Assembly: GCA_018672315.1 (NCBI GenBank)
Contig: CP076053.1
Coordinates: forward strand, 3,087,827-3,151,826
Direction of reading: 5' to 3'
Source of the DNA: Nocardioidaceae bacterium
Lineage (GTDB): Bacteria; Actinomycetota; Actinomycetes; Propionibacteriales; Nocardioidaceae
Length of the DNA stretch: 64,000 nt
Shown in pieces: positions 2,570 through 10,804 of the stretch. Numbering within the stretch: position 1 is the first letter of the stretch; the number at the start of each line of letters is the position of its first letter. A program made the position numbers and the translations under genes. A model generated the notes under the pieces. That model had not been told where the DNA came from, did no database searches, and worked only from the letters and a program-made list of their open reading frames with translations.

Positions 2570-4786
2570 TCAGCTCTCGCGGACGAACCAGAGCGCTCCC
2601 AGGGGAGGGAGCGACACGGACGCGTGCGCCGGCTGGCCCGCGTACGGGCTGTCGCTCGCCACGACACGGCCCAGGTTGCCGACCCCGGAGCCGCCGTACA
2701 CCTGGGCGTCGCTGTTGAGCAGCTCGGTCCACGTGCCCGCCGCAGGCAGCGGCAGCCGGAAGTCGTGGTGCGGAACCGCCGAGAAGTTCACGACGCACAC
2801 GAGCTCCTCACCGTCCCGGCCGCGGCGGGCGTACGCCAGCACGTTGTGCTCCGCGTCATCGGCCAGCAGCCAGCTGAAGCCCTCGTGGGAGTCGTCGCGC
2901 GACCACAGGGCGGGACGCGCGGCATAGACACGGTTCAGGTCCCGCACCAGCGACTGCACGCCGGCGTGCTGCGGGTCCTCCAGCAGACCCCAGTCGAGCT
3001 CGCGGTGCTCGGCCCACTCCGAGTCCTGCGCGAACTCCGAGCCCATGAAGACCAGCTGCTTGCCCGGGTGGGTCCACATGTAGGCCAGGAACGACCTGAC
3101 GCCGGCCAGCTGCTTCCACCGGTCACCCGGCATCTTGCGCAGCAGCGACCCCTTGCCGTGCACGACCTCGTCGTGGCTGATCGGCAGCACGTAGTGCTCG
3201 CTCCAGGCGTACACCAGGGAGAACGTCAGCCCCCCGTGGTGGTGGGAGCGGTACAGCGGGTCCTTCGCGACGTACTCCAGGGAGTCGTGCATCCACCCCA
3301 TGTTCCACTTGAAGTCGAAGCCGAGCCCACCCTCGGTCGTCGGCTTCGTGACGCCGGGCCAGGAGGTCGACTCCTCGGCGACCGTGACGACACCCGGCAC
3401 CCGCTTCGCGACCGTCGCGGTCATCTCCTGCAGCAGCTGCACGGCCTCGAGGTTCTCCCGCCCGCCGTGCTGGTTGGGCTGCCACTGGCCGGGCTCGCGG
3501 GAGTAGTCGAGGTAGAGCATCGAGGCGACGGCGTCCACCCGCAGCCCGTCGACGTGGAACTCCTCGGCCCAGTAGAGCGCGTTGGCGACGAGGAAGTTGC
3601 GCACCTCGCGGCGCCCGAAGTCGAAGACGTACGTGCCCCAGTCCGGGTGCTCGCCGCGCAGCGGGTTGGGGTCCTCGTAGAGGGGTCCGCCGTCGAAGCG
3701 GGCGAGCGCGAACTCGTCCTTCGGGAAGTGCGCCGGCACCCAGTCGACGAGCACACCGACACCCGCCCGGTGCAGGGCGTCGACGAGCGTACGGAAGCCG
3801 TCGGGGTCGCCGAGTCGGGACGTCGGTGCGTAGTAGCCCGTCACCTGGTAGCCCCACGACCCGCCGAACGGGTGCTCCATGACCGGCATGAACTCCACGT
3901 GCGTGAACCCCATGTCGGTGACGTAGGCCGTGAGCTCCTCGGCGAGCTCGACGTAGGACCTGCCGCGCCGCCACGACGGCAGGTGCACCTCGTAGACGCT
4001 CATCGGCCTCTCCTGCACCCGACCCTCGGCGCGGGCGGACATCCACGCCTCGTCGCCCCAGGTGAAGGAGGAGTCGAACACGACCGACGCCGTCGCCGGG
4101 GGCACCTCCGCGTAGGCGGCCATCGGGTCGGCCTTCTCCCGCCAGTCACCGTCGCGACCGAGCACGGAGTACTTGTACGCCGTGCCCGATCCCACGCCCG
4201 GCACGAAGATCTCCCACACGCCGGAGGTGCCCAGCTGTCGCATCGGGTGCTCGCGACCGTCCCAGGAGTTGAAGTCGCCGCGCACGCGGACGCCCCGGGC
4301 GCCCGGCGCCCACACCGCGAAGGAGGTGCCGGTGACGGCCGGCCCGCCCATGCCGTCGTAGGTGCGCACCCGCGCGCCGAGGACTGTCCACAGCTGCTCG
4401 TGGCGGCCCTCGTTGAACAGGTGCAGGTCGGTCTCGCTGACCGTGGGCAGGAAGCGGTAGGCGTCGTCGTACGCGCTCGGTGCGGAGCCGGGCCAGGTCA
4501 CCTCGAGGCGGTAGTCCGGCACCTCGGGCGTCGGCAGGACCCCCGCCCACACGCCTTCGTGCTCGTGCGCCAGCTCGACGCGCGTCGCGTCGTCGCCCCC
4601 GCCGAGCACGGCCACCACCGACTCGGCGAGCGGCTTCAGCACCCGCAGCGTGGTGCCGGTGCCGTCGGGGTGCGGATGGGGCCCCAGCACGGCGTGCGGA
4701 TCGCCGTGCTCACCGGCGACGAGCTGCTCGAGCACCCCGTGGTCGACCGGCAGGGGAGTGGTGGGGGTCTGGTCGGAGCTGGTCAC
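2570..4786 (-). CDS. glgB: Nested in-frame start: stand-alone 1,4-alpha-glucan branching enzyme GlgB
   Basis: An internal GTG at 4786 is preceded by a perfect AGGAGG (4800-4795) with an 8-base spacer. Starting there gives 738 residues, the usual length of free actinobacterial GlgB, and the first residues [20 protein letters not shown] look like a normal variable GlgB N-terminus. The site lies exactly at the maltokinase/GlgB junction, just after the maltokinase's last motif (LHRLFG). Seen: the RBS, the start and the open frame through it. Inferred: that both a long fusion and a short GlgB are made, or that this is an ancestral two-gene junction that lost the maltokinase stop. Confidence 0.55.
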
Positions 4787-6102
4787 GGCGGTCGCCTCCT
4801 GGGTGTCGCCGAAGAGCCGGTGCAGGGCACCGAGCGGGATGCCGACCCAGTCGGGTCGGTTGCGGGTCTCGTACACGACCTCGTAGACGGCCTTGTCGGC
4901 CTCGTACGCGCGCAGCTGGACACGCTGCGCCGGGCTGAGGGCGGCGAGGGGGTCGCGACCGTCGTCCACGCCGAGGTAGCCGGCGAGGAACGCCTGCTGC
5001 TGCCCCCGTCGCCATGTCGCCGCGTCGTCGGTCAGACCGGCCACCTGCGCGGCGTAGTCGAAGGAGCGCATCATGCCCGCGACGTCACGCCAGACCGAGT
5101 CAGGCGCCTGCCGCTCCGCGAGCGTCTTGGCGGGTTCGCCCTCGAAGTCCACGACCTTCCAGCCGGCGTCGGTCACGAGCGTCTGACCCAGGTGCAGGTC
5201 ACCGTGGATGCGCTGCCGGTCGAAGTCGGCGGGGGTCAACGCGCCGAGCGCCGCGTACGCCTCCCGGAGTCGCGGCCCGAGCGCCGCGAGCGTCGGGGCC
5301 ATGTCGACGGCTGCGTCGAGCCGTCGTGCCATCTGTGCGGCGACCGACGCGGCGGTCACCGACGCGTCCTGCACCGGCAGCGTCGCGGCAAGATGCGTGT
5401 GGATGTCCCGGATGGCGCTGCCGAGGTCGCGCGTACGCCTCACCTCGTCGCGTCCCTGCTCAGCGTCGGCAACGGTGGTCTCCCACCCGTCGCGGGCCTC
5501 GACGATGAGCTCCTGGAGCATCGCCAGCTCGGTGCCGTCGGCACGCATGACGCCGTAGAGGGCGCCGACGTGCGGCTCCCCGGCCGCGGTCAGCGCGGCG
5601 TGGATCTCGATGTCGGGGTTGGAGCCCTGCGTCACCTTGCGGAAGATCTTCAGCAGCGCCTGCTCGCCGTATCGCAGCGAGGAGTTCGACTGCTCGCCGG
5701 AGAACAGCTCGGCCCTCGTCTCGCTGAGGCCGACCGCCTGCTCGTCCGCGGTGATCTGAAGACCCGCGGACGAGAGCCGTTCGCGGAACGCCCGCACCCA
5801 CGCGGCGTGGGCGAGCGGGTCGTGCACGGCGTCGTACATCCAGGAGCCGGCGGGGTGGTCGACGAGCGCGTGCTCGAGGTGCGGCTGCTCCGTGCCGTAC
5901 ACGGTGAGCGGCAGGTGGTAGGTCTCCTGGTCGCCGCCGACGTAGTGGACCTCCACGAGGTCGTGCACCAGCCGGCAGCCCGCGACACCGGTCGGCACCT
6001 CGCCCCTCCGATCGACCGACGTGTGGCCGACATGGCGGCCCTTGCCGCCGAACCAGCGGGCGGCGAGCACGTAGTCCTCGAGGTGTGCGTCGAAGCGCTG
6101 CC

Positions 6103-6106
<4 letters not shown>
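2570..6106 (-). CDS. Maltokinase-GlgB fusion: N-terminal maltokinase (Pep2/Mak), C-terminal 1,4-alpha-glucan branching enzyme
   Basis: One uninterrupted ORF of 1178 codons. Residues 1-440 match maltokinase (ATP + maltose to maltose 1-phosphate): the N-terminal cap ([15 protein letters not shown]), the kinase HGDLHLGQ catalytic loop and VDFEGEP metal site. Residues 441-1178 are a complete GlgB: CBM48 ([14 protein letters not shown]), GH13 regions ([53 protein letters not shown]) and a C-terminal beta domain. The start GTG 6106 overlaps the glgE stop as GTGA. There is no stop between the halves, so a fusion is encoded. A strong internal RBS and GTG at 4786 (separate entry) could also release free GlgB. 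In mycobacteria the maltokinase partner is TreS (complex or fusion); no treS is in this window. Product would couple maltose 1-phosphate supply to glucan branching. Confidence 0.85.
4795..4800 (-). promoter_or_regulatory. Internal ribosome binding site for GlgB
   Basis: AGGAGG on the minus strand, 8 bases from the in-frame GTG at 4786. It is among the best Shine-Dalgarno matches in the window and lies inside the fused maltokinase-GlgB ORF. Confidence 0.6.
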
Positions 6107-8145
<2,039 letters not shown>

Positions 8146-8197
8146 GCAATCCACCTTCCCGGTCCCCGGGGCCGCATGCAACTCATGGCGCGCATGT

Positions 8198-8215
8198 TCT
8201 TTGATCGATCAAAGA
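8198..8215. promoter_or_regulatory. 18-bp perfect palindrome, probable operator between glgE and glgP
   Basis: TCTTTGATCGATCAAAGA is an exact inverted repeat with a central CG, the form typical of LacI-family operators. It is strikingly AT-rich for this DNA. It covers about -33 to -16 of the glgP promoter, directly upstream of its -10 box, and lies 53 bp upstream of the glgE start. Repressor binding would block glgP transcription and possibly glgE. The regulator is not in the window. Confidence 0.7.
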
Positions 8216-8218
8216 CGG

Positions 8219-8224
8219 TAGCGT
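8219..8224 (+). promoter_or_regulatory. -10 box of glgP
   Basis: TAGCGT, then 6 bases, then GTG at 8231; predicted leaderless transcript. The -35 region coincides with the left arm of the palindrome at 8198-8215. Confidence 0.55.
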
Positions 8225-8230
8225 CGCTGC

Positions 8231-10804
8231 GTGCGCGCCATCCGTCGACTGACCGTCCGCCCCGTCCTGCCCGCGGCCCTCGCCGGGCTCGAGGAACTGG
8301 TGTCCAACCTCCGCTGGAGCTGGCACCCGCCGACGCAGGACCTCTTCGCCGCCATCGACCCCGAGCTCTGGGAGTCCGTCGGGCACGACCCCGTCGGACT
8401 GCTGGGAGCGGTCGACCCGTCACGGCTCGAGGAGCTCGCCGGCGACGACGCGTACGTGGCCCGCGTGGCCGAGACCCACGCCGGGCTGCAGGACTACCTG
8501 ACCTCCGACCGCTGGTACCAGACCCAGGTCGAGGACGGGCCCGCCTCCATCGCCTACTTCAGCCCCGAGTTCGGCATCACCGCCGTGCTGCCGCAGTACT
8601 CCGGCGGCCTCGGCATCCTGGCCGGGGACCACCTCAAGACGGCTTCGGACATGGGCATCCCGATCATCGGCGTCGGTCTGCTGTACCGCCACGGCTACTT
8701 CAGCCAGTCGCTCTCCGCCGAGGGGTGGCAGCAGGAGCGCTACCCCGTGCTCGACCCCGACGGCCTGCCCATCAAGATCCTCCGTGAGGACGACGGCCGC
8801 CCCGCGCGCATCACGATCGGGCTGCCGGGCGACCAGCAGATGGTCGCCCAGATCTGGTACGCCGAGGTCGGCCGCGTGCCCCTGTTGATGCTCGACACGA
8901 TGGTGGAGGAGAACATCGACGCGTCCATCCGGGAGGTCACCGACCGCCTCTACGGCGGCTCCACCGAGCACCGGCTGCGCCAGGAGGTGCTGCTCGGCGT
9001 GGGTGGCGTACGCGCCCTGCGCACCTGGTCGCGACTGACCGGGGCGCCTGCCCCCGAGGTGTTCCACACCAACGAGGGCCACGCGGGCTTCCTCGGTCTC
9101 GAGCGCATCCGCGAGCTCACCGCCGGCGAGGGTGGACCCGGGCTGGACTTCGACACCGCGCTCGAGGTGAACCGGGCAGGCACGGTCTTCACCACGCACA
9201 CCCCGGTGCCGGCCGGCATCGACCGGTTCCCGCGAGACCTCGTCGCGCAGTACTTCTCCCACGGTGCCGTGCTCGACGGCGTGCCCACCGACCGGATCCT
9301 CGCGCTCGGCAGCGAGGACTACGACGGAGGCGATCCCGGGGTGCACAACATGGCCGTCATGGGCTTCCGCCTCGCCCAGCGTGCCAACGGCGTCTCGCAG
9401 CTGCACGGCGAGGTCTCCCGCGGCATGTTCCACGGGCTGTGGCCCGCCTTCGACGAGGCCGAGGTGCCGATCAGCTCGATCACCAACGGCGTGCACGGAC
9501 CGACCTGGATCGCCCGCGAGGTCATCGAGATGGCCGCCGGGCTCGGGGGCGACGTGGAGACCGACCCGCAGGTCTTCGACATGGTCGACGACGTGCCCCC
9601 GGCCGAGATCTGGGCGCTGAAGCGCACGCTGCGCCAGCGGTTCGTCGAGGACGCGCGCAAGCGGCTGGCCGCCTCGCAGGTGCAGCGCGGCGCCACCCCG
9701 GCCCAGCTCGGGTGGGTCGAGGAGGCGCTCGACCCCGACGTGCTGACGATCGGGTTCGCGCGACGGGTGCCGTCGTACAAGCGGCTCACCCTGATGCTGC
9801 GCGACCCCGAGCGGCTCAAGAGGCTGCTGCTGCACCCCGAGCGGCCGATCCAGCTGGTCATCGCGGGCAAGTCCCACCCGGCCGACGAGGGCGGCAAGCG
9901 GCTGATCCAGCAGATCGTGCGGTTCGCCGACGACCCCGAGGTGCGGCACCGCATCGTGTTCCTGCCGGACTACGACATCGCCATGGCGCAGCCGATGTAC
10001 CCGGGCTGCGACGTGTGGCTCAACAACCCGCTCCGCCCGTACGAGGCCTGTGGCACCTCGGGGATGAAGGCCGCCCTCAACGGCGGCCTGAACCTCTCGA
10101 TCCTCGACGGCTGGTGGGACGAGTGGTACGACGGCGGCAACGGTTGGGCGATCCCCTCGGCCGACGGCCTGCCCGACCCCGACCAGCGCGACGACCTCGA
10201 GGCCACGGCGCTGTACGACCTGCTCGAGCACGAGGTCGCGGCCCGCTTCTACGACGTCGACGCCGACGGGGTGCCCCCGCGCTGGATCGAGATGGTGCGG
10301 CACACCCTGACCTCCCTGGGCCCCAAGGTGCTCTCGACGCGCATGCTGCGCGACTACACCCGCGAGCTGTACGGCCCCGCCGCCGCTGCTGCGCACCGCG
10401 TGAACTCCGACTACGAGGGCGCGCGCGAGCTCGCCGCCTGGAAGGGGCGCGTCCGCGAGGGCTGGGACGGTGTCCGCGTCGAGCACATCGAGGCCGACGG
10501 GGCCACCGACGCGCAGATGGGCGGCCGCATCGGGCTCACGGCCTTCGTCGCCCTCGGTGCACTCTCACCGGAGGACGTGCGCGTGGAGGTCGTCTCCGGC
10601 CGCACGACCAGCGACGACACCCTCTCCGAGACCGAGACCCAGCTGCTCGAGGTCGAGGAGAGCTACGAGGGCGGACGGCACCGCTTCGCCGGCACCCTCG
10701 TCCTGCAGCGGGCGGGCTCCCTCGGCTACACCGTGCGCGTCGTGCCCCGGCACGCCGGGCTGGCGAGCCACGCCGAGCTCGGCAAGGTGGCGTACGCCGG
10801 CTGA
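8231..10804 (+). CDS. glgP: Alpha-glucan (maltodextrin) phosphorylase GlgP, DUF3417-containing type
   Basis: An 857-residue GT35 enzyme that phosphorolyses alpha-1,4-glucans to glucose 1-phosphate. The N-terminal about 110 residues are the DUF3417 extension (SNLRWSWHPPTQDLFAAIDP) found in the actinobacterial/archaeal phosphorylase branch. The core follows: AYFSPEFGITAVLPQYSGGLG, HTNEGHAGFL, FTTHTPVPAGIDRF and the PLP site EACGTSGMKAALNGGLN with Lys613. The GTG start fits the -10 box 6 bases upstream. It is divergent from glgE and overlaps the next gene as TGATG. It would supply or recycle linear glucan ends in step with GlgE/GlgB; the intergenic palindrome suggests sugar-responsive repression. 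Confidence 0.93.
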   Translation: MRAIRRLTVRPVLPAALAGLEELVSNLRWSWHPPTQDLFAAIDPELWESVGHDPVGLLGAVDPSRLEELAGDDAYVARVAETHAGLQDYLTSDRWYQTQVEDGPASIAYFSPEFGITAVLPQYSGGLGILAGDHLKTASDMGIPIIGVGLLYRHGYFSQSLSAEGWQQERYPVLDPDGLPIKILREDDGRPARITIGLPGDQQMVAQIWYAEVGRVPLLMLDTMVEENIDASIREVTDRLYGGSTEHRLRQEVLLGVGGVRALRTWSRLTGAPAPEVFHTNEGHAGFLGLERIRELTAGEGGPGLDFDTALEVNRAGTVFTTHTPVPAGIDRFPRDLVAQYFSHGAVLDGVPTDRILALGSEDYDGGDPGVHNMAVMGFRLAQRANGVSQLHGEVSRGMFHGLWPAFDEAEVPISSITNGVHGPTWIAREVIEMAAGLGGDVETDPQVFDMVDDVPPAEIWALKRTLRQRFVEDARKRLAASQVQRGATPAQLGWVEEALDPDVLTIGFARRVPSYKRLTLMLRDPERLKRLLLHPERPIQLVIAGKSHPADEGGKRLIQQIVRFADDPEVRHRIVFLPDYDIAMAQPMYPGCDVWLNNPLRPYEACGTSGMKAALNGGLNLSILDGWWDEWYDGGNGWAIPSADGLPDPDQRDDLEATALYDLLEHEVAARFYDVDADGVPPRWIEMVRHTLTSLGPKVLSTRMLRDYTRELYGPAAAAAHRVNSDYEGARELAAWKGRVREGWDGVRVEHIEADGATDAQMGGRIGLTAFVALGALSPEDVRVEVVSGRTTSDDTLSETETQLLEVEESYEGGRHRFAGTLVLQRAGSLGYTVRVVPRHAGLASHAELGKVAYAG

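Follow-up and report, generated by a model that had tools for sequence, protein, structure and literature searches.

A conserved palindrome at the glgP promoter as the predicted operator of a proposed Cra-like LacI-family regulator in Nocardioidaceae

The 18-bp palindrome found upstream of glgP in the window (the whole stretch of 64,000 nucleotides analyzed here) is very probably the operator of a LacI-family protein that is encoded elsewhere in the genome and is predicted to repress glgP and to act as a Cra-like dual switch. The palindrome itself is exact, unique in its own genome and not a product of chance. The position of the site, its co-occurrence with the regulator gene and the recurrence of the site before that gene were established from the sequence and by comparative genomics. 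From these, we infer that a dimer of the regulator would bind across the -35 and spacer region of the leaderless glgP promoter and block RNA polymerase. A sugar or sugar-phosphate effector would release the regulator, and glycogen phosphorylase would be made only then.

Results

A sequence-only reading of the window had described an exact 18-bp palindrome between the divergent genes glgE and glgP, and such a palindrome, TCTTTGATCGATCAAAGA, is indeed present (Table 1). It has a central CG, and its symmetry ends at the next outward pair (T at 8197 and C at 8216). With up to three mismatches allowed, it is the sole match in the window (shuffle expectation 0.00); in the 3.60-Mb genome it is the sole exact match, and the second-best place is mismatched at 3 of the 18 positions. 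The start of glgE lies 52 bp from the palindrome. A sigma-70 consensus scanner made no promoter call in 8100-8300. Since the -10-like TAGCGT ends 6 nt upstream of the GTG of glgP, the palindrome occupies the place of the spacer and the -35 element, in agreement with the earlier placement over this part of the promoter. In the genome of the window, the spacing from the first hexamer to the -10-like element is 13 bp, and thus the palindrome there covers mostly the spacer. On the far side of glgE, maltokinase and GlgB domains are found in one open frame (window 2570-6109, minus strand), a fusion adjoining glgE.

Table 1. Features of the glgP upstream region and the gene of the predicted regulator (window positions unless another coordinate is given)
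Feature	Position	Strand	Basis and remarks
Predicted operator, perfect 18-bp palindrome	8198..8215	.	Sequence; conserved in relatives; binding predicted
Conserved operator core TTTGATCGATCAAA	8200-8213		Sequence and conservation in relatives
-10-like TAGCGT of the glgP promoter	8219..8224	+	Ends 6 nt upstream of the GTG; leaderless transcript inferred
glgP, alpha-glucan phosphorylase, conserved target	8231..10804	+	GTG start at 8231; TIGR02094, 744 bits; DUF3417 and phosphorylase domains
glgE, divergent neighbour, not a conserved operator target	6103..8145	-	ATG at 8145; PF11896, PF21702
Ribosome-binding-like GGAAGG of glgE	8154..8159	-	Sequence
LacI-family regulator gene, 358 aa	G000:C1 ~1100519-1101595 = L203:7520-8596	-	Divergent from radA; far from the window

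Conservation of the palindrome upstream of glgP in related species, by which the sequence-only reading was to be judged, was found in most of the glgP regions compared. Of 149 family genomes, 94 contained a relative of GlgP, and the set that we compared comprised 90 upstream regions from 89 genomes, including the genome of the window (G000) and two copies from G100; G021 and G064, where the locus lies at a contig edge, G055 and G087, which matched only very weakly, and G056 were omitted. In 70 of the 90 regions, TTKGAWCGWTCMAA occurred with zero (31 regions) or one (39 regions) mismatch, and the other 20 regions had four to six, so that the mismatch counts were bimodal. The position was nearly fixed: in 52 of the 70 regions, the site ended 22 or 23 bp upstream of the start of glgP as aligned. 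Two of the position outliers, L114 and L122, have, by our reading of the alignment, another such word where the site is normally found. TT, GA, CG and TC were invariant across the 70 sites, which is partly owed to the selecting pattern; the central CG, present in 70 of 70, is likewise contained in that pattern, which was allowed one mismatch. The consensus operator over these sites is TTGGAWCGWTCMAA. We scored 68 of the site-bearing regions (L114 and L122, with their best site further upstream, were left out). Each of the 68 has a TAnnnT that ends 6-8 nt upstream of the start codon of glgP, and the spacing from the first hexamer to TAnnnT was 17-19 bp in 62 of them. In relatives, the operator thus appears to double as the -35 element of leaderless glgP promoters.

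In a control with 100 palindromes permuted from the same letters, none matched any of 62 glgP regions, whereas the real word matched 50; this test used 62 of the 90 regions, the other 28 having failed a stricter alignment or length filter. The permuted maxima were 0 for the regulator gene (real word, 26 of 30), 1 for the phosphoenolpyruvate carboxykinase (PEPCK) gene pck (23 of 29) and 0 for glgE (1 of 30). A reversed-pattern control was not used as evidence, because of the CTAG within it, a word that is probably rare.

An exact scan of the GTDB contig collection for the 16-bp core CTTTGATCGATCAAAG returned 74 stretches. It was uninformative on conservation, since TTGGA half-sites prevail among the relatives and records close to the window's own genome may have been excluded. 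Among these stretches, glgE matched none, glgP matched a single one (L014, with a distant GlgP about 1.3 kb off), and no match to the regulator or to any other target was obtained at E <= 1e-8; the genus-level search covered the window's own genome only. The same scan placed exact CTTTGATCGATCAAAG ahead of the gene for pyruvate phosphate dikinase at three orthologous Streptomyces loci (L025, L030 and L059; the identity was assigned by domain for L025 only), which hints at a related control reaching further, at another PEP-pyruvate gene. A second orthologous Streptomyces set (L027, L056 and L057) carries the same palindrome, which in L027 lies between the genes for an HTH protein and an ABC transporter and adjoins a TTAGGT...ACCTAA-like word.

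Three LacI HTH matches were found in the genome of the window. One of them is the regulator gene listed in Table 1, which carries the operator-like word TTGGATCGTTCAAG 24 nt upstream of its GTG start. The protein matched the LacI HTH model PF00356 with 50.1 bits (cut-off 27) and PF13377, a sugar-binding domain of the periplasmic-binding-protein-like type, with 102.8 bits (cut-off 26.5); on these domain matches, its LacI/GalR-family fold is plain. By model it is not an ortholog of Cra/FruR (NF008452, 71.7 bits against a cut-off of 385) or of CcpA (TIGR01481, 84.6 bits against 442.35). Relatives were present in 80 of the 149 family genomes at E <= 1e-40, and the 78 genomes with an E of 1e-96 or better were counted as carrying orthologs. 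All of the 70 site-bearing glgP regions belong to ortholog-carrying genomes, and 17 of the 20 site-less regions to genomes without an ortholog (Fisher test, 1.2e-15, shared descent ignored); the exceptions, site-less in spite of the regulator, are G010, G107 and the second glgP copy of G100. Within genera, the site and the regulator are absent together from G098 in g7 and from G040 in g24, which argues that the link between them is not only a matter of descent.

The site also precedes the regulator's own gene, with zero or one mismatch in 32 of 39 loci, two mismatches in three and at least three in four (L219, L231, L232 and L292). The gene is divergent from radA (TIGR00416) in 36 of these loci; radA was not detected in the available flanks of the remaining three. 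The recognition helix VSRQTVSNAxN is present in 39 of 39 orthologs. Of ten distant homologs compared, only a paralog in G005 (L107) has SRQTVSN, and TTTGATCGATCAAA and TTGGATCGATCGAA are found between its gene and a glycogen-debranching gene. Nine loci (L293-L301) represent the homologs of about 45% identity that occur within the order in genomes of 8-9 Mb. Among them, a word with up to two mismatches is present only at L299 and L301, as TTTTAACGTTCAAA; these two have another helix, SVQTVSN, and the similar one-mismatch word upstream of them counts against our assignment. The suggestion in the sequence-only reading of a LacI-type operator is supported, the palindrome having a central CG and a LacI regulator being linked to it, as a predicted binder, by co-occurrence and by the site at its own gene.

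With at most one mismatch, the operator occurs at five places in the genome of the window: glgP, a GH13 alpha-glucosidase gene (21 nt before the start), the regulator gene, the PEPCK gene (between it and an epimerase gene) and a place upstream of a DUF4032 gene. The one-mismatch word of the last place, TCTGAACGTTCCAA, is at L276:2001-2014 (G000:C1:2046838), about 190 bp upstream of the DUF4032 gene. Even with two mismatches allowed, no site in this genome falls at pyk, glgX, gap or pfk, and therefore its own regulon looks small. The two-mismatch word at L205 is, by reading, inside a coding frame, and those at L277-L281 gave no match to any query protein.

We surveyed exact sites in 25 genomes chosen for completeness, 24 with the regulator and one (G098) without. 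There were 39 such sites in 18 of the genomes, and 37 of them were assigned to glgP (11), pyk (10), glgX (8), alpha-glucosidase (5), gap (2) and pfk (1), leaving L244 and L260; the targets were identified by Pfam and NCBIfam models for representatives, blastp clustering and tblastn, and two glgP by coordinates. Of the seven genomes without an exact site, all but G098 carry the regulator, and these six have one-mismatch sites at their glgP. In all ten pyk cases, TAnnnT follows 4-8 nt past the operator and is itself followed, after another 4-7 nt, by a GTG; the position is predicted to be of the repressor type, blocking the promoter. By reading, the alpha-glucosidase operator lies apparently within the first codons in L246, L249, L254, L264 and L269. 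In the relatives, the sites are thus spread over several glycolytic genes and pck, at a distance from the gene of the regulator, a pattern that G000 shows only in part. This wider regulon, which the sequence-only reading had not foreseen, directs attention to central metabolism (pyk, gap, pfk and pck).

Each of the 30 genomes queried contained a PEPCK relative, and 29 of the 30 loci were scorable by the script filters; 23 of these have the site with zero or one mismatch (permuted control, at most 1). In regulator-bearing genomes with a close PEPCK, a one-mismatch site was present in 21 of 21, 103-263 bp before the start (the distance is approximate for G077, where PEPCK is broken), and where a genome with the regulator has a distant PEPCK gene (four cases), the mismatches number 1, 1, 2 and 2. 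The regulator-less G012, G020, G019 and G098 have four or five mismatches, and in G040 a contig edge truncates the pck locus. From the end of the operator to TAnnnT, the distance is 23 nt in 16 of the 23 and 24 nt in four (20 of 23 together). In G000, the pck site has one mismatch, and the distance to a -10-like TATCGT is, by reading, 25 and not 23-24. If TAnnnT is the -10 element, the operator is centered near -42 at pck and at about -28 at glgP. From near -42, a DNA-binding protein can activate transcription, and by this promoter geometry the regulator may activate pck. A GTGA-N6-CAC word was also seen in 9 of the 23 pck regions (L332-L351 and L360), in eight of them at one place just upstream, centered near -61; it is possibly a CRP-type site.

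Discussion

The sequence-only reading had proposed that one regulator coordinates glucan synthesis and degradation, the site controlling glgE and glgP together. The site does lie between the divergent genes, close to the glgE start, and glgE is divergent in the fetched upstream DNA of 37 of the 70 site-bearing glgP genes (it is absent there from the other 33). However, the position of the site is fixed relative to the -10 of glgP and not to glgE. Furthermore, among 29 genomes in which glgE was not seen beside a site-bearing glgP (29 of 33 cases; G119, where glgE adjoins glgP and shares its site, was not counted), no site with zero or one mismatch was present in the 450 bp upstream of glgE; a two-mismatch word at L314 is inside the glgE gene. 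Joint control is thus unlikely: the comparison assigns the operator to glgP, and glgE is not supported as a conserved target. An effect on glgE in the window's own genome, where its start is 52 bp away, is possible. Less probable still is a local maltose/alpha-glucan repressor, similar to AmlR or MalR, acting on glgP and alpha-glucosidase only, with the pck and regulator sites of G000 being incidental. The two best sites of G000, at glgP and the GH13 alpha-glucosidase gene, and the G005 paralog, which has the same helix and adjoins a glycogen-debranching gene, would fit such a repressor, but the one-mismatch sites at every close pck locus of the regulator-bearing genomes (21 of 21) and the exact sites at pyk, seen in 10 of the 25 genomes surveyed, would not.

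Central-CG operators are common to LacI-type proteins and the binding of L203 is a prediction, so that the binder could be another LacI-type protein of the same genome (the RbsR-like L110, or L111, which adjoins a frame for a GH1-like glucosidase) or a protein from a different regulator family. We regard this as very improbable: among the three LacI HTH places, only L112/L203 has a site with up to two mismatches at its gene, the nearest word elsewhere being a two-mismatch one about 4 kb from L110, and the presence of the L203 ortholog tracks the site. Finally, TTGAT...ATCAA resembles an FNR half-site pair, but the half-sites are spaced by two bases and not four; this spacing, the failure of the control palindromes at glgP and the conservation of the site in relatives make a CRP/FNR-type site or a chance palindrome a negligible explanation.

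The LacI-family operator thus remains the preferred reading, and one of its nearest described counterparts in function is AraQ/MalR1 of Bifidobacterium, a global LacI-family regulator with targets including pyk, gap and glgP, for which a glgP site overlapping the -35/-10 elements is read as repression and sites upstream of -35 are read as activation (PMC6882875, PMC4746261). The regulator described here is similar in its family, its occurrence in Actinobacteria, its pyk, gap and glgP targets and its glgP site on the promoter. However, the AraQ/MalR1 operator is TGTGAGCGCTCACA, whereas the consensus here is TTGGAWCGWTCMAA; the pyk and gap sites of AraQ/MalR1 are upstream of -35 (activation), whereas the pyk site here is on the promoter; and pck, which has a site here, is not among the AraQ/MalR1 targets described in the available parts of those papers. 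PckR of Rhizobiales represses glycolytic genes and activates gluconeogenic genes such as pck (PMC4052901). Cra/FruR of enterobacteria and PckR resemble the present regulator in having a gene mostly unlinked to the targets, and their logic is the one predicted for it (PMC4052901), but they belong to other lineages, and glycogen degradation is a main target here.

AmlR of Actinoplanes sp. SE50/110, a LacI-type repressor of a GH13 alpha-glucosidase, is by description similar in having a short central-CG palindrome over -35 and such a target, but it is described as local, adjoining its own target (PMC6828939). Streptomyces MalR and Actinoplanes AcrC are also LacI-family regulators of alpha-glucan metabolism; their sites, however, are CTTGCAG-type repeats, unlike the glgP sites here, and their genes are beside malEFG (PMC5526262). 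Our literature search, mostly outside subscription journals and covering the accessible parts of the sources, found neither this motif nor an equivalent regulon for the family, and in the accessible part of a 2024 review on prokaryotic alpha-glucan enzymes neither the word LacI nor the word regulon appears (PMC11046441). Global LacI-type carbon control is, as far as the available parts of the literature describe it, known from CcpA in Firmicutes, FruR in enterobacteria, PckR, GapR and GluR in Alphaproteobacteria and AraQ/MalR1 in bifidobacteria.

The wider proposal, which we hold with less confidence than the assignment of the operator itself but still think probable, is that the protein is an undescribed actinobacterial, Cra-like global regulator with the operator TTGGAWCGWTCMAA. 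It would repress glgP (with the operator as the -35 element of the leaderless promoters), glgX, pyk and pfk and, in relatives, alpha-glucosidase and its own gene, and it would act on pck, as an activator, from a site centered near -42, accompanied in some genomes by the CRP-like site near -61. The regulator would thus be a Cra-like switch that chooses between glycogen breakdown and glycolysis, that is, the burning of glycogen and sugar, and gluconeogenesis. In the genome of the window, its detectable targets would be glgP, the alpha-glucosidase gene, pck and the regulator gene.

Conclusions

These results give another actinobacterial family a specific candidate protein, an operator, a target list and a promoter geometry, all of which are testable. 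If the proposed regulation holds, the degradation of storage glucan would be tied to the PEP-pyruvate node in bacteria with the GlgE pathway.
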